Assembly (NCBI GenBank): GCA_937928595.1 | Contig: CALGJV010000004.1 | Coordinates: forward strand, 62,001 to 126,000 | Length of the DNA: 64,000 bases | Source: an uncultured Phycisphaerae bacterium | GTDB lineage: Bacteria; Planctomycetota; Phycisphaerae; UBA1845; Fen-1342 | Reading direction: 5' to 3' | Shown: positions 13,401-52,322 of the stretch, piece by piece | Layout of the letters: every line of letters starts with the position of its first letter | How positions within the stretch are numbered: the first letter of the stretch is position 1 | Made by a program: the position numbers and the translations under genes | Notes under the pieces: model-generated | What the model saw: the letters and a program-made list of their open reading frames with translations, nothing else | The model's database searches: none | What the model was told of the DNA's origin: nothing

Positions 13401-13525
13401 ATTCGAGCCCGGAGCGCAAGCGACCGGCCCGGCGCGCGGCCCCGCATCCGAGCCCGGAGCGCAAGCTCCGGGTTTCGTCCGGGTCGGCGACCACTGGACC
13501 CCGGCCTGGCGGCCGGGGCTCGGAC
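13401..13525. repeat. Paired palindromic repeats (three units)
   Basis: Three hairpin-forming units lie upstream of the exporter gene. Two have the GAGCCCGGAGCGCAAG form (13404-13420 and 13446-13472; the second closes with CTCCGGG). One has the CCCCGGCCTGGCGGCCGGGG form ending GCTCGGAC (13499-13525). Related pairs occur at 44.8 and 51.4 kb and inside hutU. This fits a REP/BIME-like family; no RAYT-type transposase is in the window. Confidence 0.7.
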
Positions 13526-31669: not shown

Positions 31670-33517
31670 CTACGGGGCGGTCGCGAGGTCCACGCCCGCA
31701 CGCCGCGCGACGTCCTGCGCCGGCTCGTAACCCGCGTCGGCGTGCCGCATGATGCCGAGGGCCGGATCGGCCGTCAGCACCCGCTGCAAGCGCCGGTCCG
31801 CCTCCGGCGTGCCGTCCGCCACGATGACCTGCCCCGCGTGCAGGCTGTAACCGATCCCCACGCCGCCGCCGTGATGCACGCTCACCCACGTCGCCCCGCA
31901 GGCCGTGTTGGCCAGCGCGTTGAGGATCGGCCAGTCCGCGATGGCGTCCGAACCATCGCGCATGCCCTCCGTCTCGCGGTTCGGCGAGGCGACCGAGCCG
32001 CAGTCGAGGTGGTCGCGGCCGATGACGATGGGCGCCGAGACGCGGCCTTCCCGCACCAGCCGGTTGAACACCAGCCCCATGCGGGCCCGCTGCCCGTACT
32101 TCAGCCAGCAGATCCGGGCCGGCAGCCCCTGAAACGCGACCTTCTCCCGGGCGAGGCGGATCCACCGGCAGAGGTGCTCCTCCTGCGGGAACGTCGCCAG
32201 CACCGCCTCGTCGGTCACGGCCAGGTCGGCCGGGTCGCCCGACAGCGCCGCCCAGCGGAACGGCCCGGACCCTTCGCAGAACAGCGGCCGGATGTACTCG
32301 GGCACGAAGCCGGGAATCCGAAACGGGTCGTAATCCGACGCTTCCCCGCGCGCCACGCCCATTGCCGTCCGAGCCCCGGGCGCCAGCCCGGGGCTTGCCG
32401 GGACCGCACCCATTGCCGCCCGAGGCGCCGTGCCCATGGCTGTCGGAGGCTCGGGCGGCAGCCCGGGGCGGTCCCCGGCACTTTTCCGCGCAGCGTGCGG
32501 CTGGTACAGCCCCCGCGCCACCGCTTCGCACGCGTGGCCGCGGAGGTTGTTGCCGTAATCGAACGTGACGGCCCCGCGCCGCTGGAGCGCGAGCATCAGC
32601 GCGACGTGCTCGCCCATCGTGCGCAGTGCGGCGCGGCTGTATTCGTGCGGGTCGCGACGCCGCAGCTCGAGCGCCGCCTCGTACGGCAGGCCGGCGGGCA
32701 CGTAGCCGTTCAGCGGGTCGTGCGCGGACGTCTGGTCGGTCAGCACGTCGGGCGTGATGTTCCGCGCGACCAGCTCCGCGAGCAGGTCCACGATGTTGCC
32801 CAGCCAGCCGATCGACAGCGGCCGCCCGGCCGCGCGGGCCTCCTGGGCCGCCGCGACGGCCTCGTCGAGGTTTGTGCACATCCGGTCGAGGTAGCGCGTT
32901 TTCAGGCGCTTCTCGATGCGCGTGCGGTCCACCTCCGCCGCGAGGCACACGCCCTCGTTGAACGTGGCCGCCAGCGGCTGCGCGCCGCCCATGCCCCCCA
33001 GGCCCCCGGTCACGACCAGCCGCCCGCGGAGCGACCCGCCGAAGTGCTTGCGGGCGCAGGCCGCGAACGTCTCGTAGGTGCCCTGGAGGATGCCCTGCGT
33101 GCCGATGTAGACCCACGAGCCGGCCGTCATCTGGCCGTACATCGTCAGGCCGAGGGCCTCTAGCCGGCGGAACTCGTCCCACGTTGCCCAGCGCGGCACG
33201 AGCATCGCGTTGCTGATGAGCACGCGCGGGGCGTCGGGGTGCGTCTGGAGCACGCCGACGGCCCGGCCGGACTGCACGAGCAGCGTCTCGTCGGATTCGA
33301 GCCGGCGCAGGGCCGCGACGATCCGGTCGAAATCCGGCCAGGAGCGGGCCGCCTTCCCGCAGCCGCCGTAGACGATGAGCTGCTCGGGCAGCTCGGCGAC
33401 GTCGGGGTCGAGGTTGTTCATGAGCATGCGGAGCGCGGCTTCCTGAAGCCAGCCGCGGCAGGACCGCGTGGTGCCGCGCGGGGCGCGGACGATGCGGGGG
33501 CCGGACGGTGCGGACAT
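31670..33517 (-). CDS. hutU: Urocanate hydratase with in-frame repeat insertion
   Basis: A 615-residue urocanase, which converts urocanate to imidazolone propionate in histidine breakdown using bound NAD+. Signatures: [55 protein letters not shown] and [12 protein letters not shown]. It is about 60 residues longer than usual; the excess (about residues 340-392) is Pro/Ala-rich and coincides with palindromic DNA repeats. The ATG at 33517 has GAGGAG 8 nt upstream. No other hut gene is nearby. Confidence 0.93.
32361..32485. repeat. Palindromic repeats inside the hutU coding sequence
   Basis: One good unit (32367-32394) reads GTCCGAGCCCC, then an arm GGGCGCCAGCCCGGGGC. Two degraded units follow: a GCCGCCCGAGG half (from about 32416) and GGAGGCTCGGGCGGCAGCCC (from about 32444). 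They match the intergenic GTCCGAGCCCC palindromes at 43.7, 44.8 and 51.4 kb and keep the hutU reading frame open. Confidence 0.7.
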
Positions 33518-33545
33518 GCGGTGCTCCTCGTCGAGCTGTGCGCAC

Positions 33546-33551
33546 ATTATA
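33546..33551 (-). promoter_or_regulatory. Candidate -10 of hutU
   Basis: A perfect TATAAT on the minus strand, 28 nt before the hutU start. No -35 match at 17 bp. Confidence 0.5.
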
Positions 33552-33604
33552 CGGCGGGCGGCGCGATCGGCCGCGTCCGGACGGCCGCGCGCGGACACCG
33601 CCCG

Positions 33605-42110: not shown

Positions 42111-43244
42111 TCACCGGTCCGCCCGCCCGTACGCCGCCGGCGGACCGACATATTCGGGCCACAGGTCGCGCTCCAGCAGGAACGTCCGCACTTCCGTGCA
42201 CAGGTGGCACTTGTCGGCGTAGCCCTCCGGCGACGCGATATAGCCATATTCGCGTGCGCGCTCGTACAGCGCATAGCTGCCGCCCGCGACCACCGCCGCC
42301 ACGACCGGATGCGCACGCCAGCCGGACGCGAAGCGCGCCCACGCCGCGGCCACGTCGGCGACCGCATCCGGAGGTGGCGGGGGCGACGCGCGGGCAGCGC
42401 CGGTCCGCGGCAGCGCCGCGACGCCTTTCGCACCCGGCTCCGGCGCATCGGCGGGCAGGGCCACGCGACCGAGGACGATTCCCGCGCACAGCCCCGGGAA
42501 CACGTGCCCGCCCGGATCGACATGAATGTGCCGGCTTCCGAGGACCCCCTCCGCACAGTGCCGGCCGCGCAGCGCTTCGACCGGCTGCCGGGGCAGCCGC
42601 GGCGCGAGCTCGCGGGCTGCGCGGCCGGTGAGCCGATCCGGGTGGCGGGCCTGCGTGGCGCGCCAGGCGGCGGCCCGTTCCGCGGCGGGCGCGTCCCGCA
42701 ATTCTTGCGGGTGCTGGAAGAAGTCCCACCAGCGGACGAGGACGCGGCCGGGACCGAGGATCTCGCGGGCCAGCGTCACGCAGCGCCGCACACGCTCGAA
42801 CGGCACATGCTCCTGGTGGTACACGTCGCTGCTGACGACCAGCCGCGTGACGCCCAGCGCGGCCAGCTCCGCGAGCCGGGCGCGGGTGGTCGCGTCGTCC
42901 ACGGCCCACGAAGCGTTGGTTTCGAGCTTCTCGAGCGGGCTCAGGCCGGACGCACGAGCGCCGGCCAGGATCGCGCGCAGCCGCGGCCAGTCGAGACAGG
43001 GTTCGCCGCCGGCCAGATGAATGCGCATCGTGCGGCCGTGCGCCGCGGCCAGCTCGTCCAGCCCGCGCCACAGCGCCAGGGCCCCGGCGACGGACATCTC
43101 GCCGCCGCCGGCGTCGGGGCCGCCGTGCACGTAGCAGAACGCGCAGCGGGCGCTGCACCGGTAGGTCAGCATCAGGCCCGCGAACTCCCAGACGGCGGGG
43201 ACCGGAGCGGCAGGGTCCGGCGGGCGTGGTGCATGGAACGGCAT
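42111..43244 (-). CDS. Radical SAM protein with C-terminal cysteine-rich region
   Basis: A 377-residue radical SAM enzyme. Cluster ligands C30, C34, C37 (Y-R-C-S-A-R-C-A-F-C-Y), G-G-E-P for SAM binding, and extra cysteines in H-C-A-E-G-V-L-G, F-P-G-L-C-A-G and D-K-C-H-L-C, consistent with a SPASM- or twitch-like auxiliary cluster. I do not recognise a specific subfamily; peptide modification is one option but no precursor peptide gene was found beside it. There is no ribosome binding site and TAGAAT (43252-43257, minus) ends 7 nt before the ATG, suggesting leaderless translation. Confidence 0.8.
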   Translation of the reverse strand: MPFHAPRPPDPAAPVPAVWEFAGLMLTYRCSARCAFCYVHGGPDAGGGEMSVAGALALWRGLDELAAAHGRTMRIHLAGGEPCLDWPRLRAILAGARASGLSPLEKLETNASWAVDDATTRARLAELAALGVTRLVVSSDVYHQEHVPFERVRRCVTLAREILGPGRVLVRWWDFFQHPQELRDAPAAERAAAWRATQARHPDRLTGRAARELAPRLPRQPVEALRGRHCAEGVLGSRHIHVDPGGHVFPGLCAGIVLGRVALPADAPEPGAKGVAALPRTGAARASPPPPPDAVADVAAAWARFASGWRAHPVVAAVVAGGSYALYERAREYGYIASPEGYADKCHLCTEVRTFLLERDLWPEYVGPPAAYGRADR

Positions 43245-43305
43245 ATGCCGGATTCTACGCCCGGCGGCCGGCCCGAAGCCCGGGCGGGAGCGAGACGCCT
43301 CAGGC

Positions 43306-43341
43306 GAGGGATTGAGGGATTGAGGGACTGAGCGATTGAGG
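43306..43341. repeat. Array of GATTGAGG octamers
   Basis: Four head-to-tail 8-bp units (GATTGAGG, GATTGAGG, GACTGAGC, GATTGAGG), perfectly phased, just upstream of the radical SAM gene's promoter side. Confidence 0.8.
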
Positions 43342-43361
43342 TTGCGTCTGCGGCGGACCCT

Positions 43362-43479
43362 GTACCGGCCGGCGCCCCCGTCGGCCGTCTACCCGTACGC
43401 GAAACACCTGGGAGCGCGCACTCCACTTCGCCCAATCCGCTGCGTTGCCCAAGACACTGCTCGAGAGCAGTGGCACCCG
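43362..43479. repeat. 118-bp two-hairpin dispersed element, copy 2
   Basis: Aligns without gaps to 33747-33864: GTACCGGCCGGCGCC at the start, GTCGGCCGTCTACCC at 43380-43394, and the terminal hairpin CACTGCTCGAGAGCAGTG then GCACCCG. The terminal stem is conserved while its tetraloop changes from CCAG to CGAG. As with copy 1, an octamer array lies about 20 bp to its left. Confidence 0.75.
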
Positions 43480-43922
43480 CGCAGGGGCCCCCGGCCCCCA
43501 TGCGTCCCGCAGGGAGGGCATGACCGTAGCCCAGCACGAAGTGCTGGGTCCGAGCTACAGGATGGGGACCCCGTGATGAGGGCTCGGGGGCCCCGTTGCA
43601 CCTGCGTCGGCCGTTGGCCGGTGCCACACAAACACCCCGGCACGCGTCGCAAAATGCCCGCCGCCGTCCGAGCCCCGATCACCCTCCGAACGACGCGGGC
43701 GCGCGTCGCGGTCGCCGTCCGAGCGGACCTGACGGGCCGGTCGCCGTCCGAGCCCCGGCTGCCAAGCCGGGGCCTATTACCCGCCGCCCGCGCCGCGAAA
43801 AAACCACCGTTACCGGACCATCGCGCGCGATTTGCCCCCGCGGCCGCGATCCGCCAAACTAGCACCGTGGACCGGCCGGCGCGCGGGCGTCGGCGGAGAC
43901 CACACCCGGCCGGCGACGAGCC
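43480..43922. repeat. Repeat-rich gene-free region
   Basis: No gene is supported. It holds a hairpin CCCAGCAC-GAA-GTGCTGGG (43530-43548) followed by GTCCGAGC. There are two copies of GGTCGCCGTCCGAGC 29 bp apart (43710 and 43739), a half unit GTCCGAGCCCC at 43666, and one full palindrome GTCCGAGCCCCGGCTGCC...GGGGC at 43746-43773. All share the GTCCGAGC core of the palindrome family. Confidence 0.65.
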
Positions 43923-44483
43923 ATGAACGCCCCAGAGCCCGATCGTCTCGACCGCGAGCACGCCCAGCTGCTGGTCGTCGATATTCAGGAAAAGCTGCTG
44001 CCGCACATTCACGGGCACGAGCGCGTGCTGGCGCAGGCGGAGCGGATGATCCGCGCGGCCGAGGTGCTGCGGCTGCCGATCACGATCTCGGAGCAGTACC
44101 CGGCGGGCCTGGGGCCGACGGCGGCCCCGCTGCCGGCGGCGACCCGCAGCGCGGTCAAGGTCGAAAAGACGACGTTCAGCTGCTGCGCGGACGCCGGCTG
44201 TCGGCGGCGGATCGCGTCGGTCCTCCGGCCGCAGGTCCTGCTGGTCGGGATTGAGACGCACGTCTGCGTGCAGCAGACGGCGCTGGACCTGCTCGAGGAG
44301 CGGATGCAGCCGATCGTGCTGGCGGACGCGGTCGGCTCGCGGCGCGAGTTCGATTTCCAGATCGCGCTGGACCGGATGCGGCACGCGGGTGTGATCGTCA
44401 CGACCGTGGAGGCCGCGATCTTCCGGATGGTTCAGGACTCGGCCGGCGACCTTTTCAAGCGGATTCTGCCCATCGTGCGCTGA
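43923..44483 (+). CDS. Isochorismatase-family cysteine hydrolase
   Basis: A 186-residue hydrolase with the family triad: D20 (V-V-D-I-Q-E-K), K82 (E-K-T-T-F-S-C) and C115 (G-I-E-T-H-V-C-V-Q-Q-T). The sequence is nearest the ISOC1/YcaC-like branch, whose substrates are mostly unknown. Its stop codon overlaps the ATG of the next gene (TGATG at 44481-44485), so the two are translationally coupled. Confidence 0.87.
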   Translation: MNAPEPDRLDREHAQLLVVDIQEKLLPHIHGHERVLAQAERMIRAAEVLRLPITISEQYPAGLGPTAAPLPAATRSAVKVEKTTFSCCADAGCRRRIASVLRPQVLLVGIETHVCVQQTALDLLEERMQPIVLADAVGSRREFDFQIALDRMRHAGVIVTTVEAAIFRMVQDSAGDLFKRILPIVR

Positions 44484-44803
44484 TGCCCCACAGCCGCCCT
44501 GACGACGAATGGGATCCGGAGGCCGAGGCCGCGGAGGACGCGGACGTGGCCGCGGACGACCCGGACGCCGATCCCGAGGGCCCGCAGGAGATTGACCTCG
44601 TCGCTGGCGACGACGAGGCGGAGACTGTCGCGTGCCCGCACTGCGGGACCGACGTGTACGAGGATGCGGACCGCTGCCCGCACTGCGGCGAGTGGATCGC
44701 GGCGGGCGGCGGCGGGTCGACCTGGCCGCTGTGGGTGGCGGGGGTCGCGCTGGTACTGATCCTGTACCTGGCGTACCAGTCTTACGGCGCGGGCGGCGGG
44801 TAA
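44483..44803 (+). CDS. Zinc-ribbon membrane protein (106 aa)
   Basis: A small protein with a strongly acidic N-terminus (residues 7-47, mostly Asp, Glu and Ala). A zinc ribbon has C51, C54, C65 and C68 (C-P-H-C ... C-P-H-C), and a Gly-rich hinge leads to one membrane helix (about 79-98). The ribbon probably faces the cytoplasm. The function is unknown; coupling to the isochorismatase-like gene suggests co-production. Confidence 0.75.
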   Translation: MPHSRPDDEWDPEAEAAEDADVAADDPDADPEGPQEIDLVAGDDEAETVACPHCGTDVYEDADRCPHCGEWIAAGGGGSTWPLWVAGVALVLILYLAYQSYGAGGG

Positions 44804-44807
44804 TGGG

Positions 44808-44890
44808 CCCCGGCTTGGCAGCCGGGGCTCGGACGGGGACCGGCACGTGAGCTCCGCAGGGTCTCCGAGCCCGGAGCGGGAGCTCCGCGC
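44808..44890. repeat. Paired palindromic repeats
   Basis: CCCCGGCTTGGCAGCCGGGG followed by CTCGGAC (44808-44834), then, 28 bp on, TCCGAGCCCGGAGC...GGAGCTCCG (44863-44890). They lie between the ends of two convergent genes, where they could also act as transcription stops. Confidence 0.72.
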
Positions 44891-44924
44891 CTGGGTTCGG
44901 GTTTCGCTCCGGACCCCGGTTGGC

Positions 44925-47390
44925 TCAACGTGGGGGTGAGGGGTTGTCCTGTTCGCCGGCCCACGTCGCGACGTAGCTCGCCGCCAACGCCCGCACCAGT
45001 TCATCGGCGTCGGTGCGCGCGATCTCGCGGGCTGCGTCGACGAACGTCGGCCCTTGCCGCGCGAGCACCCGCAGCGCCAGCAGCCGCACGAGCCAGTGGG
45101 GGTGCGTCGCGTTGGCCTGCACCGCGTCGAGCAGCGTGCGGTCGAGCCCGGCGACCATCAGTGCGTCGAGCGTCCGCGCGCGTGTCTCCCACGCCGGGGC
45201 GGCCAGCGCGTCGCGCAGCGCGGCCTGCACGCGCTCGGCCGCGATGGACGTCGGCGTGTAGCCGAGCGGCTGGCGCGCCGCGCGCTGCTGCTCGCCCAGC
45301 AGGTCGGCCAGCACCTCGAGGGCCCGCCAGCGGGCGTCCTCGTTCTCCCCGCCTAGGGCGGCCACGAGGCTGCTGATCGACTCGCGCGCCGACAGCGCGG
45401 GCACGCGGTTGAAGTATACCGTGCGCGGCACCTGGCCGACCGGGCCGGGCCGCCATGTGCCGTCGGCGCCGCGCTGCGCATCGAGGATGGTGTTCACGAT
45501 GACCCGCTGGAGCTGTTGCGGGCTCCGGCGGCTCACGTCACGCAGCGGACCGACATCGAGCGTGCAGCGCACCCGCACCGTCTGGCCGGGCTGGAGCACC
45601 CGCACTTCGTCGAGTGTCACGGTCAGCAGGGCCGGGTACTCGCGCTTGCGCTCGCCTTCGAGCGTGACGGACACCAGAAACACCGGGTTGGCCGCCTCGT
45701 CGGCTCCGAGCGCCAGGGGCGTCGGTCCACGGTTCGTGAGACGGAACTCCAGCCACCACGGCTCGCCGGGACCCGGGCTGCGGTGCTCCGGCTCGACCGC
45801 CGCTTCGAGAAACCGCCCCGGCTCCCGGTAGTAGTCCAGAATTCGCGGATCGAAGCGGGCCCACGCGGCCGCGACGGCCGGATCCGGTTGCGCCGGCCGG
45901 ACCGGCGCGGGCGGCGGCAGCGCGCCCGGTGCCTGGGGCGCGGCCGCGGGGGCGGGACGCCCGGGCGGGGATGCATCGGCCGGTTGGGTTGCGGGGGGAG
46001 CTGTCGGGGCGGCGAGGGCCGTGGCAACCGCGGCCGGCGCCGCGGGGGGGCTGCCGTTTGGCGTCGCTTCCAGCTCAGCGAGCAGGTCGGCCGCATAGCC
46101 CGCGGGCGGACGGTACTCGAGCTGGGACAAAACACGCTCGGCGCCGGCTGCGTCATCCGCCGCCCGCAGAAGTCGCACGACCTGCACGGCCGCGAAGGGG
46201 TCGCGCTTCGCCAGCGGGGTGAGAACGGCGAGGGCCTCGTCGGCCTTGAGATTCACGGCCAGCGCCCAGCCGAGCACGCGCTGGACGAACGGGTCCGAAG
46301 GGGCCCGCTCGCGCGCGGCCCGCGCGAGCATCAGCGCGCGGTCGGGTTGCGCGTCGAGCGTGACGTAGTACCAGGCGGCCTGCGCCAGCTCGCTCACGGG
46401 ATGTTCGGAGGGCTCGCGGATGGCCGCGAAGCGCCGGGCGAGAGCGCCCTGAACTTCCACGGCCTCCAGATCGCGGCCGGCCCGCCGCAACAGGTAGTAC
46501 TCCAACAGCGCGGCCTGCGCCGCCTCGGCCGGGGCCGTGCGCACCGCCCGCTCGGCCGTCGCGATCGCCGCTTCGAGCTGACCGCGGGCGAACTGGTTGC
46601 GGGCGGCGTCGAGCAGGAACCCGCCGGGAAATGGCGCCGCGGGGTGCACGGCGGCGTGCATGGCCAAGCCGTAGTCGTACAGCCGGCCGGCCTCCTCCCG
46701 TAACCCGCCTTCGTCGAGCAGCAGGGCCGCGTCCCACACGGCCGCGAGCGACAACGGCCGCGCACTAACGAGTTGCAGCAGCGACGCAACACGCTCGGCG
46801 AGCGGGTCTTCGTCGGCCAGGGTCTCCACTTGCAGTGCCGCGGCCACCGGGCTGCCGGGCTGAAGTGTCAAGGCGCGGGCGGCATGCTGTCGCGCGGTCG
46901 CCGGGTCCAGCCGCTCGAGAGCGAGCCGGGCCAACCATTCCTGAACCTGCGCCGCCAACGCCGCCGGGCGTTCCACCGCGGCCTGCTCCTCGAGCCAGCG
47001 GACGCGCTGCTCGGCCGTGGGCTGCGCGCGCAGGCCGGCGTCGAGCCAGCGCTCAAACGCCCCCTCGTGCCGCGGGGCGGCCTTCAGCAGGCCGGCCAGC
47101 GCCTGGTCCGCGGCGCGGGCGTCGGCATCGAGCAGTGCGACCTCGTAGAGCCACGCCCAGGCGTCGGCCAACTGCGGATCGAGCCGCACGGCGGCCAAGA
47201 GAAGCGTGCGGACGTGCTGCCGGTCGGCGGCCGACGCGGGCCGGGCGCGCGTCAGACCGTGGTCGCGAGCGCGGTCGGCGAGCAGTTGCGCGAGCGTGCG
47301 GGCCGGCGGGCCGGCAGCCGCGGCGGCCAGCGTACCGCAGCAGAGCGTGAGGGCCAGGGCGTACGGTCGGACCCGCCAGGGGCTCGGCAT
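44925..47390 (-). CDS. Exported TPR and HEAT-like repeat protein
   Basis: An 821-residue protein with a signal peptide (about 1-27). Tetratricopeptide-like helical pairs fill about 45-440, a Pro/Ala/Gln-rich linker covers about 450-510, then a beta-rich domain (W-W-L-E-F-R-L-T-N-R-G-P-T-P-L), and the last ~150 residues look like HEAT-type helices (W-L-V-R-L-L-A-L-R-V-L-A). No catalytic motif. It probably scaffolds periplasmic or cell-surface complexes. The ATG at 47390 is used because CGGAGA lies about 7 nt before it; an in-frame TTG at 47405 is less likely. TATCAT (47420-47425, minus) is a candidate -10. Confidence 0.7.
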   Translation of the reverse strand: MPSPWRVRPYALALTLCCGTLAAAAAGPPARTLAQLLADRARDHGLTRARPASAADRQHVRTLLLAAVRLDPQLADAWAWLYEVALLDADARAADQALAGLLKAAPRHEGAFERWLDAGLRAQPTAEQRVRWLEEQAAVERPAALAAQVQEWLARLALERLDPATARQHAARALTLQPGSPVAAALQVETLADEDPLAERVASLLQLVSARPLSLAAVWDAALLLDEGGLREEAGRLYDYGLAMHAAVHPAAPFPGGFLLDAARNQFARGQLEAAIATAERAVRTAPAEAAQAALLEYYLLRRAGRDLEAVEVQGALARRFAAIREPSEHPVSELAQAAWYYVTLDAQPDRALMLARAARERAPSDPFVQRVLGWALAVNLKADEALAVLTPLAKRDPFAAVQVVRLLRAADDAAGAERVLSQLEYRPPAGYAADLLAELEATPNGSPPAAPAAVATALAAPTAPPATQPADASPPGRPAPAAAPQAPGALPPPAPVRPAQPDPAVAAAWARFDPRILDYYREPGRFLEAAVEPEHRSPGPGEPWWLEFRLTNRGPTPLALGADEAANPVFLVSVTLEGERKREYPALLTVTLDEVRVLQPGQTVRVRCTLDVGPLRDVSRRSPQQLQRVIVNTILDAQRGADGTWRPGPVGQVPRTVYFNRVPALSARESISSLVAALGGENEDARWRALEVLADLLGEQQRAARQPLGYTPTSIAAERVQAALRDALAAPAWETRARTLDALMVAGLDRTLLDAVQANATHPHWLVRLLALRVLARQGPTFVDAAREIARTDADELVRALAASYVATWAGEQDNPSPPR

Positions 47391-47474
47391 GGGCGTCTCC
47401 GGCAAGTGGGTTCGGCGACATGATACTGCCGCGCGGGTGGGGGGCCACTGGCGGCGCGGGGCGTCCGGCGACGC

Positions 47475-47927
47475 TTACTCGGCCGGCTCGAGGATGGCCG
47501 TCATCGAGCCGCGGCAGCGGGCGATGCGGGGGTCCGGTCCGTAGGCGTGAATCTGCTGCTGCTTGAACTCGGCTCGCTCGAAGATCGTGGTCTCGACGAT
47601 GACGCGGCCGGTGGTGTCCACCTCGCGCGCCATCTCATAGGCGCGCTGCGGGTCATACCCGAAGAGCCGTCCGAGCATCTCGATGACGTACTCGTAGGTG
47701 TGATCGTCGTCGTCGAGCAGGATGACGTGCCAGAGGGGGGCCCGCCCGGTCTGCGGCCGGGCGACCTCGGGCCGGGCGGTCGCGCCCCCGGCGGCGGCCC
47801 GCCGAGTCGGTGCGGGCGGGCGCAAGCGGTGACGGCGTTCCTTTGTCAGCACAAGCGACATCTGTTGCGCTACCAAGCTGAGCGGGGCGGTCGCGTGGCC
47901 GCGGCCGACGCGAGCTCCTTGACTCAT
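47475..47927 (-). CDS. clpS: ATP-dependent Clp protease adaptor ClpS (long N-terminus)
   Basis: A 150-residue protein whose C-terminal ~85 residues are a ClpS domain: P-L-W-H-V-I-L-L-D-D-D-D-H-T-Y-E-Y-V, then M-A-R-E-V-D-T-T-G-R-V-I-V-E-T. ClpS feeds N-degron substrates to ClpAP. The first ~65 residues are low-complexity and not conserved. The ATG at 47927 gives this extension; an in-frame ATG at 47861 would remove 22 residues and may be the true start. Confidence 0.88.
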   Translation of the reverse strand: MSQGARVGRGHATAPLSLVAQQMSLVLTKERRHRLRPPAPTRRAAAGGATARPEVARPQTGRAPLWHVILLDDDDHTYEYVIEMLGRLFGYDPQRAYEMAREVDTTGRVIVETTIFERAEFKQQQIHAYGPDPRIARCRGSMTAILEPAE

Positions 47928-47980
47928 TAATACCCGCGCGATCAGGCGAAGCGCAGCGCAATCGGGCGAGATTGGGGGCG

Positions 47981-48009
47981 TTGCCGGCCGCCGGCGGCCG
48001 ACGTATAAC
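47981..48009 (+). promoter_or_regulatory. thiC promoter
   Basis: TTGCCG (47981-47986) and TATAAC (48004-48009) are separated by 17 bp, a good sigma-70-type layout. It is immediately upstream of the TPP riboswitch. Confidence 0.65.
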
Positions 48010-48020
48010 GCGCGGTGGTG

Positions 48021-48145
48021 CTAGGGGTGACCGGGCGCGACCGGTCTGAGATCCGCGCACGCGGCGCGGAGACCCTCCGAACCTGATCAGCGTCGGACGC
48101 TGCCCGGCCGGGGCCGGCTTCGTCGCGGCTGCGGAGGGAAGCACA
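48021..48145 (+). promoter_or_regulatory. TPP riboswitch (THI element)
   Basis: All conserved THI-box blocks are present in order: CTAGGGGTG (48021), CTGAGAT (48046-48052), ACCCT (48072-48076), GAACCTGATC (48079-48088) and GGAGGGAAGC (48133-48142). It binds thiamine pyrophosphate and lowers expression of the downstream thiC. A GC-rich hairpin (about 48152-48176: CGACGGGCCCG, loop TCTTC, CGGGCGTCG) follows without a U-tract. The expression platform may therefore act by hiding the GGAG before thiC or by Rho-dependent ending. Confidence 0.92.
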
Positions 48146-48226
48146 GCCCGCCGACGGGCCCGTCTTCCGGGCGTCGACCCGCTTCCTTCCGCCGGGTTCG
48201 TACCAGTCCGCGATTGGAGTACGCCC

Positions 48227-49654
48227 ATGACGCAGCTCGAAGCGGCCCGCGCAGGGTGCATCACGCCTGAAATGGCCATCGTCGCCGCCCGCGAGAAGGT
48301 TGCACCGGAGTTCGTCCGCGACGGCGTGGCCCGCGGCCGGATCGTCATTCCCGCCAACGTGCGCCACCTGGCGGGCAGCAGCGGGCAGGCACCGGCCGGT
48401 CCGCCGGCGGAGCGGGCTTCGGCGGAGGCGCTGGCGGCCGCGGCGCGGCCCCGCCGGACGGTGGCGGAGCGCCGCGCGTGGCTCGACGCGCCGGCTCCGG
48501 CCGGCGAGCGGGCGCCGCGGCGGCTGGAGCCGATCGGCATCGGGCGGGCCCTGAGCACGAAGATCAACGCGAACCTGGGCGCATCGCCGCTCTCGAGCGA
48601 CGCCGCGGGCGAGCTGCGGAAGCTCCGGACGGCGCTGCTGTACGGGGCGGATACCGTGATGGACCTGTCGACCGGCGGTGACCTGGACGCCTGCCGCCGG
48701 CTCTTCGTGGACCACAGCCCGGTGCCGGTGGGGACGGTGCCGATCTACAGCATGATCGTGGAGCGCCCGATCGAGGAGCTCGACGCCGACACGATTCTGC
48801 GGACGATCGAGCGGCAGGCGCAGCAGGGGGTGGACTTCTTCACGATCCACGCGGGGATCCGGCGGGCGCACCTGCCGCTGCTGGGGCGGCGCACGCAGGG
48901 CATCGTCAGTCGCGGCGGGGCGCTGCTGGCGCGGTGGATGACGTACCACGGGCGCGAGAACCCGCTGTACGAGCGCTTCGACGACATCAGCGCGATTCTG
49001 CGGGCGTACGACGTGACGTACTCGCTGGGCGACGGGCTGCGGCCGGGGTGTCTCGCGGACGCCGGCGACCCGGCGCAGCTCGCGGAGTTGCGCGAGCTGG
49101 GGGAGCTGGTGCACCGGGCCCGCGACGCGGGCGTGCAGGTGATGGTGGAGGGGCCGGGCCACGTGCCGCTCAACGAAGTGGCGTTCAACATCGAGACGCA
49201 GCGGCGGCTGTGCGACGACGCGCCGTTCTACGTGCTGGGCCCGGTCGTGACCGACGTGTTTCCCGGATTCGACCACATCACCAGCGCGATCGGCGCGACC
49301 GAGGCCGCGCGGGCCGGGGCGGCGCTGCTGTGCTACGTCACGCCGCGCGAGCACGTCGGCCTGCCCGACGAGGACGACGTGCGCCTGGGATGCATCGCCT
49401 ACCGCATCGCGGCTCACGCCGGCGACGTGGCCCGCGGCGTGGCGGGCGCCGCCGACTGGGACCGCGACATGGCCCGCGCCCGCGCCGCGCTCGACTGGCC
49501 GCGGCAGTTCGCGCTCGCGTTCGACGGCGAGCACGCCCGGGCGCTGCGCGCTGCGCACCTGCCGACCGACGCGCCGTACTGCTCGATGTGCGGCCGGGAG
49601 TGGTGCAGCCAGCGGCTCAGCGGCGAGCTGACGAGCGGGTGCCCGGTGCCGTGA
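48227..49654 (+). CDS. thiC: Phosphomethylpyrimidine synthase ThiC
   Basis: A 475-residue radical SAM enzyme converting aminoimidazole ribotide to HMP phosphate in thiamine synthesis. Conserved blocks: I-P-A-N, E-P-I-G-I-G, T-K-I-N-A-N-L-G, D-T-V-M-D-L-S-T-G-G, G-V-D-F-F-T-I-H-A-G, M-V-E-G-P-G-H-V-P, and the C-terminal cluster C452, C455, C460 (C-S-M-C-G-R-E-W-C). Between I-P-A-N (near 43) and E-P-I-G-I-G there are about 50 extra Ala/Pro/Arg-rich residues where most ThiC proteins have only a few. GGAG lies about 8 nt before the ATG. Riboswitch-controlled. Confidence 0.95.
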   Translation: MTQLEAARAGCITPEMAIVAAREKVAPEFVRDGVARGRIVIPANVRHLAGSSGQAPAGPPAERASAEALAAAARPRRTVAERRAWLDAPAPAGERAPRRLEPIGIGRALSTKINANLGASPLSSDAAGELRKLRTALLYGADTVMDLSTGGDLDACRRLFVDHSPVPVGTVPIYSMIVERPIEELDADTILRTIERQAQQGVDFFTIHAGIRRAHLPLLGRRTQGIVSRGGALLARWMTYHGRENPLYERFDDISAILRAYDVTYSLGDGLRPGCLADAGDPAQLAELRELGELVHRARDAGVQVMVEGPGHVPLNEVAFNIETQRRLCDDAPFYVLGPVVTDVFPGFDHITSAIGATEAARAGAALLCYVTPREHVGLPDEDDVRLGCIAYRIAAHAGDVARGVAGAADWDRDMARARAALDWPRQFALAFDGEHARALRAAHLPTDAPYCSMCGREWCSQRLSGELTSGCPVP

Positions 49655-49664
49655 GGCCGCGCCG

Positions 49665-50603
49665 TCAGGCCGGCGCAAGCGTGCGCCGGTAACGCCAGAA
49701 GACGCGCGCCACGCGGCAGCCCGCCCACGCGTGGTAGAACGAGATCGGCCCGACCCACGGGATCAGCGCCGTGCGGTGGCCGGCCGCCCGCAGGTCGTTC
49801 AAGCAGTGCCACAGCAGCACGCGGCCGAGCCCGTGCCCGCGGGCTTCGGGCGCGGTGCCCATCGGTCCGAAGAAGCCCCACTCGCGGTTCTGGCCCGAGT
49901 GCGCCGCGAACGCGATGATCCGGTCCTGCCGCAGCGCGAGGTGCAGCCCCGGCGGCGACTGGGCGTGGGCCAGGTGCACCTCGAACCGCCAGTCCGCGCC
50001 GAAGTTCGCCGCGAAGAACGCATCCAGCCGCGGGCCGTCGTCGTCCCGCGCGCGGCGGATGACGATCCCGTCGCCGGCCAGCCGCGCCTCCTCGGCGGCC
50101 GTGTCGAACGGCCGCTCAAGCTCGCCGACGAGGTTCACGCAGTCGCGGAAGCGCTCGAAGCCGCAGCGCTCGAGAAAGCACAGGGCCGTCGTGTAGCGGG
50201 GATCCAGGCCGGGCGTGAAGTAGTTGCCGGGAATGGCGAGCACCTCGACCTCGGCCGTGTCGGCGGGCCACGTTTGCTCGGCGCGGGCCAGCAGCCGACG
50301 CGCCACGCCCCGCCGGCGGTGCGCGGCGTCCACCGCGAACAGACCGACCCAGGCCTTCGGTGCGCCCAAGCCGCCCGCCAGCACCGGCCGCCGCACAACC
50401 GTCTGGAGAAAGCCGACCGGCCGGCCGTCGCGCTCGGCGACGAAGTTGCGCCAGTCGAACTCGGGCGTGCGCGGCGCTGCGAATAGCTTCTCGGACAGCA
50501 GCGCGGGGCTGAACGTATCGTGCACCAGGGCGGTACGGGCCAGGTCATACAGGGCGGGCAGGTCGGCCGGCACGGCCGTCCGAATCGTCTCGCTTTCAGC
50601 CAT
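49665..50603 (-). CDS. Tandem GNAT-domain acetyltransferase
   Basis: A 312-residue protein with two GCN5-type acetyltransferase folds. The first (about 5-150) has V-G-L-F-A-V-D-A-A-H-R-R-R-G-V-A-R-R-L-L, a full acetyl-CoA binding Q/RxxGxG/A-type loop. The second (about 160-305) has A-R-G-H-G-L-G-R-V-L-L. The acceptor substrate is unknown. Ten base pairs separate its stop from that of convergent thiC. GCGAGA near -10 is a weak ribosome binding site. Confidence 0.8.
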   Translation of the reverse strand: MAESETIRTAVPADLPALYDLARTALVHDTFSPALLSEKLFAAPRTPEFDWRNFVAERDGRPVGFLQTVVRRPVLAGGLGAPKAWVGLFAVDAAHRRRGVARRLLARAEQTWPADTAEVEVLAIPGNYFTPGLDPRYTTALCFLERCGFERFRDCVNLVGELERPFDTAAEEARLAGDGIVIRRARDDDGPRLDAFFAANFGADWRFEVHLAHAQSPPGLHLALRQDRIIAFAAHSGQNREWGFFGPMGTAPEARGHGLGRVLLWHCLNDLRAAGHRTALIPWVGPISFYHAWAGCRVARVFWRYRRTLAPA

Positions 50604-50935
50604 CGGCGTATCTCGCTGGGTCCGGGGCGCGGCGGCCGCGCATCGTAACCGGCCGCGTCGCGGCGAGCATTTCTCGGGACCCAGCCGGCCGACCGCCGAA
50701 TTGCCGGCGGGGCGCGGGCCCCGGGAGAGGCGCTTCCCTATAAAAGATGCGCGGCGGAAGCGGGCGTGGGCCCGGCTCGCCGTGTCGGGCGGCCGGGCGG
50801 CGGAACGCCGGGAGCGCTTGGGCGGGCGCGGTTTGGGCGGGCGTAGAATGTGGCGGAGCAAGGGAAGGCGGCGGAGCGACCGCCACCGGCTGATGCGACC
50901 CACGGCCCGGTAGTGTCCCCTGGAGGAAAGAAGCC
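50604..50935. other. Divergent intergenic region
   Basis: 332 bp without a gene. TAGAAT at 50844-50849 is a candidate -10 for the coiled-coil gene at 50936. CTATAAAAG near 50740 could be an AT-rich promoter core for either direction. The rest is GC-rich and featureless. Confidence 0.35.
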
Positions 50936-51250
50936 ATGAACGAGGCCGAATTCCAGAAGCGGCTGGCGGAACTGGTGGCCGAGATCGACGCACTGCCGGA
51001 GGGCGAGCGGGAGCGGCTAAAGGCCCTCGCGGCCGAGACGCGCGACCGGCACGAGCAGATCAAGCAGAGCGTGCGGAGCCTTCAGGAAAGCATCGATTTC
51101 CTGCGGCTGGGCATCAAGTACATGATCTTCGACCTGGAAGCGACGCGGCGCGAGAACGCGTACCTCCGCAAGATGCTCGAGCAAGACCCGAACGGCAACA
51201 ACGGCAACCCGGACGGCGGCAACCCGGATGGGGGCGGAAACGGCTTCTGA
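50936..51250 (+). CDS. Small coiled-coil protein
   Basis: A 104-residue soluble protein. Residues 3-84 are almost wholly helical with heptads (L-A-E-L-V-A-E-I-D, R-D-R-H-E-Q-I-K-Q-S-V-R, L-G-I-K-Y-M-I-F-D-L-E-A-T-R-R-E-N-A-Y-L-R-K), then an Asn/Gly/Asp repeat tail. The central Y-M-I-F-D-L-E-A-T-R-R-E-N block has the feel of a conserved planctomycete family, but I cannot assign a function. GGAGGAAAG lies about 5 nt before the ATG, the strongest ribosome binding site in the area. Confidence 0.75.
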   Translation: MNEAEFQKRLAELVAEIDALPEGERERLKALAAETRDRHEQIKQSVRSLQESIDFLRLGIKYMIFDLEATRRENAYLRKMLEQDPNGNNGNPDGGNPDGGGNGF

Positions 51251-51352
51251 AGCGACCCTCCAGGCGCTGGCCGGTGGCGCTGCGACCCGCTGCCGGCCGG
51301 CACGACCCACGCCCGTGTAAGGTCGAGTGTCTCCTACCTGACCCAGGGGCGG

Positions 51353-51386
51353 AACCCGGCGGCTTGGCAGCCGCCGGGTTCGTTTA
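51353..51386 (+). terminator. Terminator after the coiled-coil gene
   Basis: A perfect 11-bp stem AACCCGGCGGC / GCCGCCGGGTT with loop TTGGCA, followed by CGTTTA. The TTGGCA loop is the same as in the CCCCGGCTTGGCAGCCGGGG palindromes just downstream. Confidence 0.75.
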
Positions 51387-51397
51387 TGCGCGGCGGC

Positions 51398-51467
51398 GTC
51401 CGAGCCCGGAGCGCGAGCTCCGGGCCCCATCTCACCCCGGCCCCGGCTTGGCAGCCGGGGCTCGGAC
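51398..51467. repeat. Paired palindromic repeats overlapping the parA 3' end
   Basis: GTCCGAGCCCGGAGC...GAGCTCCGGG (51399-51426) and, 14 bp on, CCCCGGCTTGGCAGCCGGGG with CTCGGAC (51441-51467). The pair is bounded by GTCCGAGCCC on the left and GGGCTCGGAC on the right, an outer inverted repeat. The second unit lies within the last codons of the ParA-like gene. Confidence 0.75.
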
Positions 51468-52322
51468 AGCGGCCCCGCCACGCGCTCTGCCGTCGTCCGC
51501 CACGCCCTGACGCCACCCCCGTCCGGGCCCCCCGTCCGGGCACCCGGCGGGAGCGGCCGCGGGATCGGCCCGCGCGGGCGTGCGCTTGTCGGGTGTGGGC
51601 GGCGGGTTCGTCGGGGCGGCTTGCCAGACCGCTGTCAACGGGCGCGTGACGGCGGACGTCGGGGCGGCGACGGGCGTCTCCGCAGCGACGACCGGCGCGA
51701 GCACTTCCTCGAACAGTCGCTCGATTTCCAGCGCGGCATCGCGGGCCGCGGGTCCCATCCGCCAGACCGCGCTGCGGGCCCCGCACGCCTCCGCGTAGGC
51801 CGTTCGGAGCCGCAGCGGGGTGGCCGCGACCGGGAAGCCGAAGCGCTGCACCGCCTCGACCGCCACGCGGGCCAGACGTGTGCGGGGCTGGACGCGGTTG
51901 AGCACGGTCCAGACGCGCGGGCGATCGGCACGCGGCCCGCGCAGCCGCAGGCGGTACAGCAGCCGCGCGGTGCGGTACGACGCCCAGATGTCCATCATGG
52001 ACGGTCCGATCGGCAGCAGCACGATGTCGGCGGCCGCCGCGAGCACGGCCGTCTCGGGGCTGAGCGCGGCGGGGCCGTCGGCGATGACCACGGCATGGAT
52101 GGCGGTCAGGCGCGGCAGGCGGTCCTGAAGCGCGGCCACGTTGTCGCAACGCTCGAGCCGGATGCGCGGAGCGGCGATGGTGAGCCATTCGGATGTGCTA
52201 GCCTGGGCGTCGGCATCGACGACGGCCACGCGAATGCCGCGATCGTGGAGCCACAACGCGGCGTGGGCCGCGAGCGTGGACTTGCCGACCCCGCCCTTGC
52301 TGTTGAGGACCGCCACGAGCAT
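51432..52322 (-). CDS. ParA/MinD-like ATPase without ParB
   Basis: A 296-residue deviant-Walker ATPase. K-G-G-V-G-K-S-T at 9-16 carries the signature first Lys, followed by V-V-D-A-D-A-Q-A-S-T-S and V-V-I-A-D-G-P-A (Asp of the Walker B-like strand). The ATPase domain ends near 215; the remaining ~80 residues are Pro/Ala-rich and disordered, the last dozen encoded by a palindromic repeat. Its ATG lies one base after the stop of the cyclase gene, with GGGGAG about 8 nt before it, so the two are coupled. No parB or parS was seen, hence an orphan ParA, perhaps positioning a protein in the cell. Confidence 0.85.
   Translation of the reverse strand: MLVAVLNSKGGVGKSTLAAHAALWLHDRGIRVAVVDADAQASTSEWLTIAAPRIRLERCDNVAALQDRLPRLTAIHAVVIADGPAALSPETAVLAAAADIVLLPIGPSMMDIWASYRTARLLYRLRLRGPRADRPRVWTVLNRVQPRTRLARVAVEAVQRFGFPVAATPLRLRTAYAEACGARSAVWRMGPAARDAALEIERLFEEVLAPVVAAETPVAAPTSAVTRPLTAVWQAAPTNPPPTPDKRTPARADPAAAPAGCPDGGPGRGWRQGVADDGRARGGAAVRAPAAKPGPG

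Follow-up and report, generated by a model that had tools for sequence, protein, structure and literature searches.

The window analysed here is a 64-kb stretch of DNA from an uncultured Phycisphaerae bacterium (C4:62001-126000 of a 3.69-Mb, 46-contig assembly), and it carries a family of short palindromic repeats which are found singly and as close pairs (Table 1). The REP unit is 26 nt long and consists of the foot TCCGAG and a 20-nt hairpin, in which an 8-bp stem is capped by a GCNA tetraloop. Two types can be distinguished on the correct strand, type A (TCCGAG-CCCGGAGC-GCAA-GCTCCGGG) and type B (TCCGAG-CCCCGGCT-GCCA-AGCCGGGG), and these are united by their polarity, as in both the foot is followed directly by the hairpin. 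A scan of the window for the foot plus 20-nt hairpin recovered seven units, all with the full TCCGAG foot (13447+, 13524-, 32368+, 43747+, 44833-, 51399+ and 51466-), compared to a mean of 0.28 and a maximum of 2 in dinucleotide shuffles of the window when a CCGAG foot was specified, and a mean of 2.03 and a maximum of 6 for a GAG foot. The type A 27-mer including the flank was matched four times with up to three mismatches (0.00 expected from shuffles), while the type B 14-mer had seven matches with up to two mismatches, three of them exact, against 2.96 expected; as type B alone is near or moderately above chance, the signal is carried by the pairing. No Rfam family was matched in the window.

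Table 1. Repeat units and related hairpins in the 64-kb window (positions are those of the window).
Feature	Position	Strand	Remarks
Degenerate single REP, foot TTCGAG	13402..13427	+	Stem start as in type B; identified by eye
Doublet 1, feet outside (REPIN-like)	13446..13525	+	Foot to foot 77 nt
Doublet 1 halves	13447-13472; 13499-13524	+; -	REP; inverted REP
REP, TCCGAG + CCCCGGGC GCCA GCCCGGGG	32368..32393	+	Within predicted ORF 31670-33598 (-)
Single REP, type A	43747..43772	+	
Middle locus, type A REP	44808..44833	-	With 44864 forms a feet-inside doublet (TT), 31 nt foot to foot
Middle locus, type B REP with imperfect (degenerate) hairpin	44864..44889	+	Partner of 44808
Related hairpin, 10-bp stem, same GCCA loop	51356..51379	-	Foot ACGAA on the minus strand, not TCCGAG; identified by eye
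Doublet 3, feet outside (REPIN-like)	51398..51467	+	Foot to foot 67 nt
Doublet 3 halves	51399-51424; 51441-51466	+; -	REP; inverted REP

An earlier note on this DNA had reported close pairs of palindromes at 13446, 44808 and 51398, and these are real, with coordinates correct to within one base. Its description of the first and third loci as one large inverted repeat around two hairpins also holds, as both pairs have their feet outside and fold much more stably than shuffles (z -3.9 and -4.9, respectively), the first into two hairpins with the feet paired to close the structure. The middle pair differs in that it is arranged tail to tail, its second hairpin is imperfect, and it is no more stably folded than shuffles (z -1.0). 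Among the singles said to lie at 43666-43773 we could find one real hairpin (43747-43772), and the list of copies was incomplete, as the REP at 32368-32393 and the degenerate copy at 13402 had been overlooked. The codon score drops to a non-coding-like value (-0.26) across the former, its flanks being coding-like (0.33 and 0.36), and it is possible that this is an intragenic insertion in the long predicted ORF. We note that the related hairpin at 51356-51379 sits between convergent genes; it gives a weak covariance-model match (51357-51376, E 1), and its membership of the REP family is uncertain.

The repeats are dispersed beyond the window. We scanned about 99 kb of the source genome, in stretches chosen by repeat searches, and found 51 foot-plus-hairpin units with up to one mismatch in the foot, 36 of these with the exact TCCGAG foot, so that the genome total is at least 36 REPs with an exact foot. 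In the same 99 kb, neighbours lying no more than 130 nt apart formed ten feet-outside (HH) pairs with spacings of 66–67, 77 and 82 nt, four feet-inside (TT) pairs of which one is spurious, and three tandem (HT) pairs. A covariance model (R1), built from an alignment (A1) of 13 doublets, returned 15 strong elements (E up to 6.3e-10), although this is circular for 13 of the 15 as these were its own building set, and 23 elements with E below 0.01. The stems covary, with both-side changes at 2 of 22 pairs in the 13 copies (covariation 0.139 compared to 0.094 when shuffled). Several doublets share the spacer TTTCGTCCGGGTCGGCGACCGATGGA or one near-identical to it, which argues that the doublet spread as a unit, and the ten HH pairs and shared spacers are what is expected of REPINs, i.e. 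inverted REPs with feet outside and a short spacer that spread together (presence or absence of a whole doublet is known from sister species of another genus, described below). The exact type B REP was not found in our genome contig collection, from which the source genome itself may be absent.

Genes were predicted using a home-made codon-bias caller trained on the window (coding fraction 0.82). The best 15 elements are effectively intergenic, with eight free of any ORF overlap and seven overlapping only 5' ORF extensions with negative (non-coding-like) codon scores. When all 30 loci are considered, eight lie between convergent, five between unidirectional and two between divergent genes; an ORF is overlapped at 13, and the remaining two are at edges.

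One Y1 transposase was found in the source genome (C8:53613-53978; L041/L130) and, in agreement with the earlier note, which had seen no RAYT-type transposase in the window, this lies on another contig. It is classified as a RAYT by the NCBIfam equivalog model (81.8 bits versus a cut-off of 80). The expectation that an IS200-like RAYT with the same flanks would be found in the genome was not borne out, as the flanks of this gene read GTAGCGTCGGACCTCCGTGTCCGACGC, a classic GTAG REP unrelated in sequence to the TCCGAG units, with hairpins of the GTAGCGTCGGAC type; a class 2 RAYT would be expected to be flanked by the REP that it serves, with a GTAG foot, whereas the foot here is TCCGAG. We rejected this gene as the partner of the TCCGAG REPs because its flanks differ, and the gene and its GTAGCGTCGGACCTCCGTGTCCGACGC hairpins form a separate canonical REP system in the source genome. 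The REPIN/BIME-like reading of the earlier note consequently stands in terms of architecture, dispersal, pairing and intergenic placement, but not in the canonical RAYT link that it implied.

A different group of enzymes, the class 3 HUH-Y1 proteins, has been described as rare and found mainly in Planctomycetes, Acidobacteria and Proteobacteria, with genes flanked by structures having a 5' foot of CnGA; this was based on 24 proteins, and in that account their origin and behaviour were left open (PMC6006769, 2018). TCCGAG contains CCGA, so that all 36 exact-foot REPs, including the seven in the window, have a foot of this form. We identified 239 class 3 relatives in the genome contig collection and kept 80 loci, mostly from Phycisphaerae, other Planctomycetota and Acidobacteriota. 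In two relatives of the same family, G021 (L190; the Phycisphaerae MAG DeMMO2_9) and G001, class 3 genes encoding proteins with the motifs NHVH or RHVH, WTRQ, and YVVEQQ or YVVELQ are flanked by TCCGAG hairpins of the TCCGAGCCGAC type (for G021, which has two class 3 genes, this refers to the one other than C386). G021 also has 31 R1-matching doublets, and in those inspected the stems are quite different while the foot and loop type are unchanged.

A first scan of the 80 class 3 loci, using near-perfect stems and a TCNGA foot, was positive at just one locus. Inspection of the flanks showed tandem GA/GA mismatches, which led to a relaxed scan and then to a template. The relaxed scan was positive at 33/80 class 3 loci, with 1.22 hits per kb near the genes and 0.34 far from them, and at 8/21 class 2 control loci, with 0.54 per kb near versus 0.77 far. 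The 20-nt template required the outer four and inner two pairs and a 4-nt loop (near being within 400 bp of the gene), and with this 94 GAG-foot hairpins were found near and one far from the class 3 genes, with 34 of the 80 named loci positive and 46 having no such hairpin within 400 bp, although it should be noted that the template was drawn up after inspecting the flanks at 13 of these 80 loci. No GAG-foot template hairpins were found near class 2 controls (0/21 loci, these being the 21 of 30 that were long enough; Fisher p 5.9e-5 for 34/80 versus 0/21). In a second set of loci from the order, 21/30 class 3 loci were positive, including 14/20 outside the named set (ten loci are common to both sets), while the other Y1 loci of the order had none (0/14, the 14 of 29 that were long enough; p 2.4e-10 for 21/30 versus 0/35). 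A template-free comparison gave GAGCC as the top enriched 5-mer beside class 3 genes, in 116/160 near windows and 62/142 far windows, and TAGGG and GTAGG as the top words for class 2 genes.

The loops of the 94 hairpins are nearly all GNNA. Both middle pairs are mismatched in 65/94, in 39 cases as tandem GA/GA, unlike the stems of the source genome, which are perfect. The exact TCCGAG foot occurs beside class 3 genes at L170/L270, L179, L272, L281 and others, though feet vary and ACGAG, CAGAG and TAGAG are also seen (in the order set, 38/79 were CCGAG and 24/79 CAGAG). At L234, the exact type B stem is found beside a class 3 gene with the foot AAGAG. Some class 3 genes among L190–L269 have template hairpins with GAA or GTA feet (44 and 29 near matches, respectively), which are further foot subtypes.

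The class 3 proteins themselves resemble known Y1 enzymes. For four members the match to Y1_Tnp is weak (E 4.6e-4 to 2.5e-8), the solved relatives found by sequence with the family profile are the IS200-type transposases 2f4f and 2ec2, and an AlphaFold2 model (pLDDT 84.7) matches IS200-type transposases and the RAYT–REP complex 4er8. On the strength of this model and the PDB matches 2f4f and 4er8, the class 3 protein is predicted to have an HUH fold.

Class 3 genes are present in 55/114 genomes of the order and 13/27 of the family, and of the ten family genomes with R1-like doublets, six have class 3 and four do not, while seven have class 3 without R1-like doublets; since R1 is specific to the stems of the source genome, this co-occurrence count is a weak test. 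In the source genome itself no class 3 gene was found at E<=0.001 (46 contigs, 97.9% complete), and a 15-row class 3 profile run at E 10 matched the class 2 RAYT only. An active system should be accompanied by a class 3 gene in its genome, but this does not hold for every relic, and in the source genome such a gene may lie in an assembly gap.

Evidence bearing on mobility comes from G016 and G026, sister species of one genus in the family whose long aligned blocks are mostly 82–94% identical. One class 3-type doublet of G016 (ATCAGAG...CTCTGAC, L305:658-740) is part of 99 nt that are missing from the syntenic region of G026 (L313). The difference is in frame and leaves the ORF open in both species, the G016 product being 33 residues longer; a clear target duplication was not seen at this one empty site. 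In this comparison of two genomes with no outgroup, the difference may reflect either gain or loss of the doublet. Of the four class 3 doublets compared, this was the one clean absence, two occupy matching positions in both species, and for the fourth (L306:9296-9378) homology between the two species ends beside it. G016 has class 3 genes and G026 has none.

These data allow alternative explanations of the repeats to be weighed. It is unlikely that they are REPINs served by the canonical class 2 RAYT of this genome, acting on two REP types, even though one RAYT above the NCBIfam cut-off is present and REP and RAYT together are the usual state, because its flanks carry hairpins made up of GTAG + GCGTCGGAC/GTCCGACGC rather than TCCGAG ones and none of the 21 class 2 loci had GAG-foot template hairpins nearby. 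That they are immobile host RNA or DNA elements such as transcription terminators or mRNA-end stabilisers seems to us quite improbable: the eight of 30 loci between convergent genes and the strong folding would be in keeping with such a role, but there is no terminator-like site in 43000–52000, some copies are found between divergent genes or within an ORF, and the conservation of the foot is left unexplained. A secondary host role after insertion may nevertheless exist.

The size of 70–95 bp and inverted ends would suit a MITE of a DDE transposon with the terminal inverted repeats GTCCGAGCC/GGCTCGGAC. We consider this very improbable, given that no clear target duplication is seen at the sole empty site, single REPs and feet-inside pairs occur, stems vary while the foot and loop stay, and units of this kind are also found flanking HUH genes. 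The repeats also recall the CGTC-tagged REPs, a known superfamily with no dedicated transposase, in that type A ends are often GCCGTCCGAG, which contains CGTC; this motif is not adjacent to the stem and is absent from most type B ends (GGCATCCGAG), and the alignment of copies shows TCCGAG as the conserved tag, with no CGTC at the stem base, making membership of this superfamily extremely improbable.

We therefore regard the repeats of the source genome as probably REPs of the class 3 TnpA_Y1 kind, arranged mostly as inverted doublets (REPINs) and orphaned here. Relatives carry this kind of REP next to class 3 genes, and a class 3 TnpA_Y1 is a better candidate for the cognate enzyme than the genome's RAYT. 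Canonical enzymes recognise a REP by its foot and hairpin on a single strand, and cleavage takes place at a CT close by; a bulge is required in some groups and a perfect stem in others, and bases in the loop can be indispensable (PMC8266576). A conserved foot and loop with a freely changing stem would fit this recognition logic. By analogy, the class 3 HUH-tyrosine nuclease would bind one folded strand, on which the CCGA(G) foot would serve as its guide and the GCNA hairpin with its 8-bp stem as the address, and would cut beside the hairpin and move or copy the doublet via a single-stranded intermediate. With the two REPs inverted, either strand would present one foot-plus-hairpin of the right polarity. 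Because the assembly has no gene for this enzyme, the TCCGAG copies are most likely relics which are no longer mobilised, or else are mobilised in trans.

The repeats agree with the published class 3 TnpA_Y1 structures (PMC6006769) in the CCGA/CAGA foot, the many-copy hairpin repeats and their occurrence in Planctomycetes, and the class 3 signature given there (NHVH, W[TA], YV..EQ) is found in relatives beside matching REPs. They differ in that the source assembly has no class 3 gene and the stems are perfect with no tandem GA/GA mismatch, and doublet mobility is absent from that account as far as its class 3 sections go. They resemble the REPINs and BIMEs of GTAG RAYTs as inverted REPs with feet outside, measuring 66–82 nt from foot to foot, dispersed and intergenic, but have the TCCGAG foot and a genome whose RAYT lacks these REPs. 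Like CGTC-tagged REPs (PMC3733652) they have 8-bp stems, 4-nt loops, mostly HH dimers and no dedicated transposase found, but the tag is TCCGAG and AT pairs at the stem foot are absent. In the literature on such repeats we found the survey of class 3 and its CnGA foot, and no account of doublets with a TCCGAG foot from Phycisphaerae. The kind is already known though barely studied, and it is these members and the mobility evidence which are new.

The class 3 REP can now be precisely defined as a 20-nt hairpin with an NGAG foot and a GNNA loop, organised in doublets. It is a realistic possibility, though slightly less likely than not, that class 3 HUH enzymes and NGAG-foot, GNNA-loop REPs constitute a third, separately evolving REP system in Planctomycetota and Acidobacteriota, in which doublets would be mobile as whole units, with insertion even in frame within genes, and REPs could outlive their enzyme, as here. 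Together with the sister-species empty site and the orphan genome, this definition makes the class 3 substrate and its movement directly testable. It also suggests that where planctomycete genomes contain doublets of this kind, these are a form of mobile DNA and not regulatory motifs.

Other repeats were also encountered in these relatives. Many of the G021 TCCGAG doublets (L093–L107) are nested in a longer element with the ends GTAGTCCAAAACTGTGG/CCACAGTTTTGGACTAC. In G016, an inverted repeat (CACGAAGGACACGAAG...CTTCGTGTCCTTCGTG, L306:8174-8276) is absent from G026, where the flanking matches overlap by 11 nt, as are two tandem copies of a second repeat, AGCGGCCGACNCNNGTGTCGGCCG (L306:13613-13726; also in the L024 and L036 flanks), which resembles another GTAG-type REP. 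Both differences were set aside as belonging to these other repeats.
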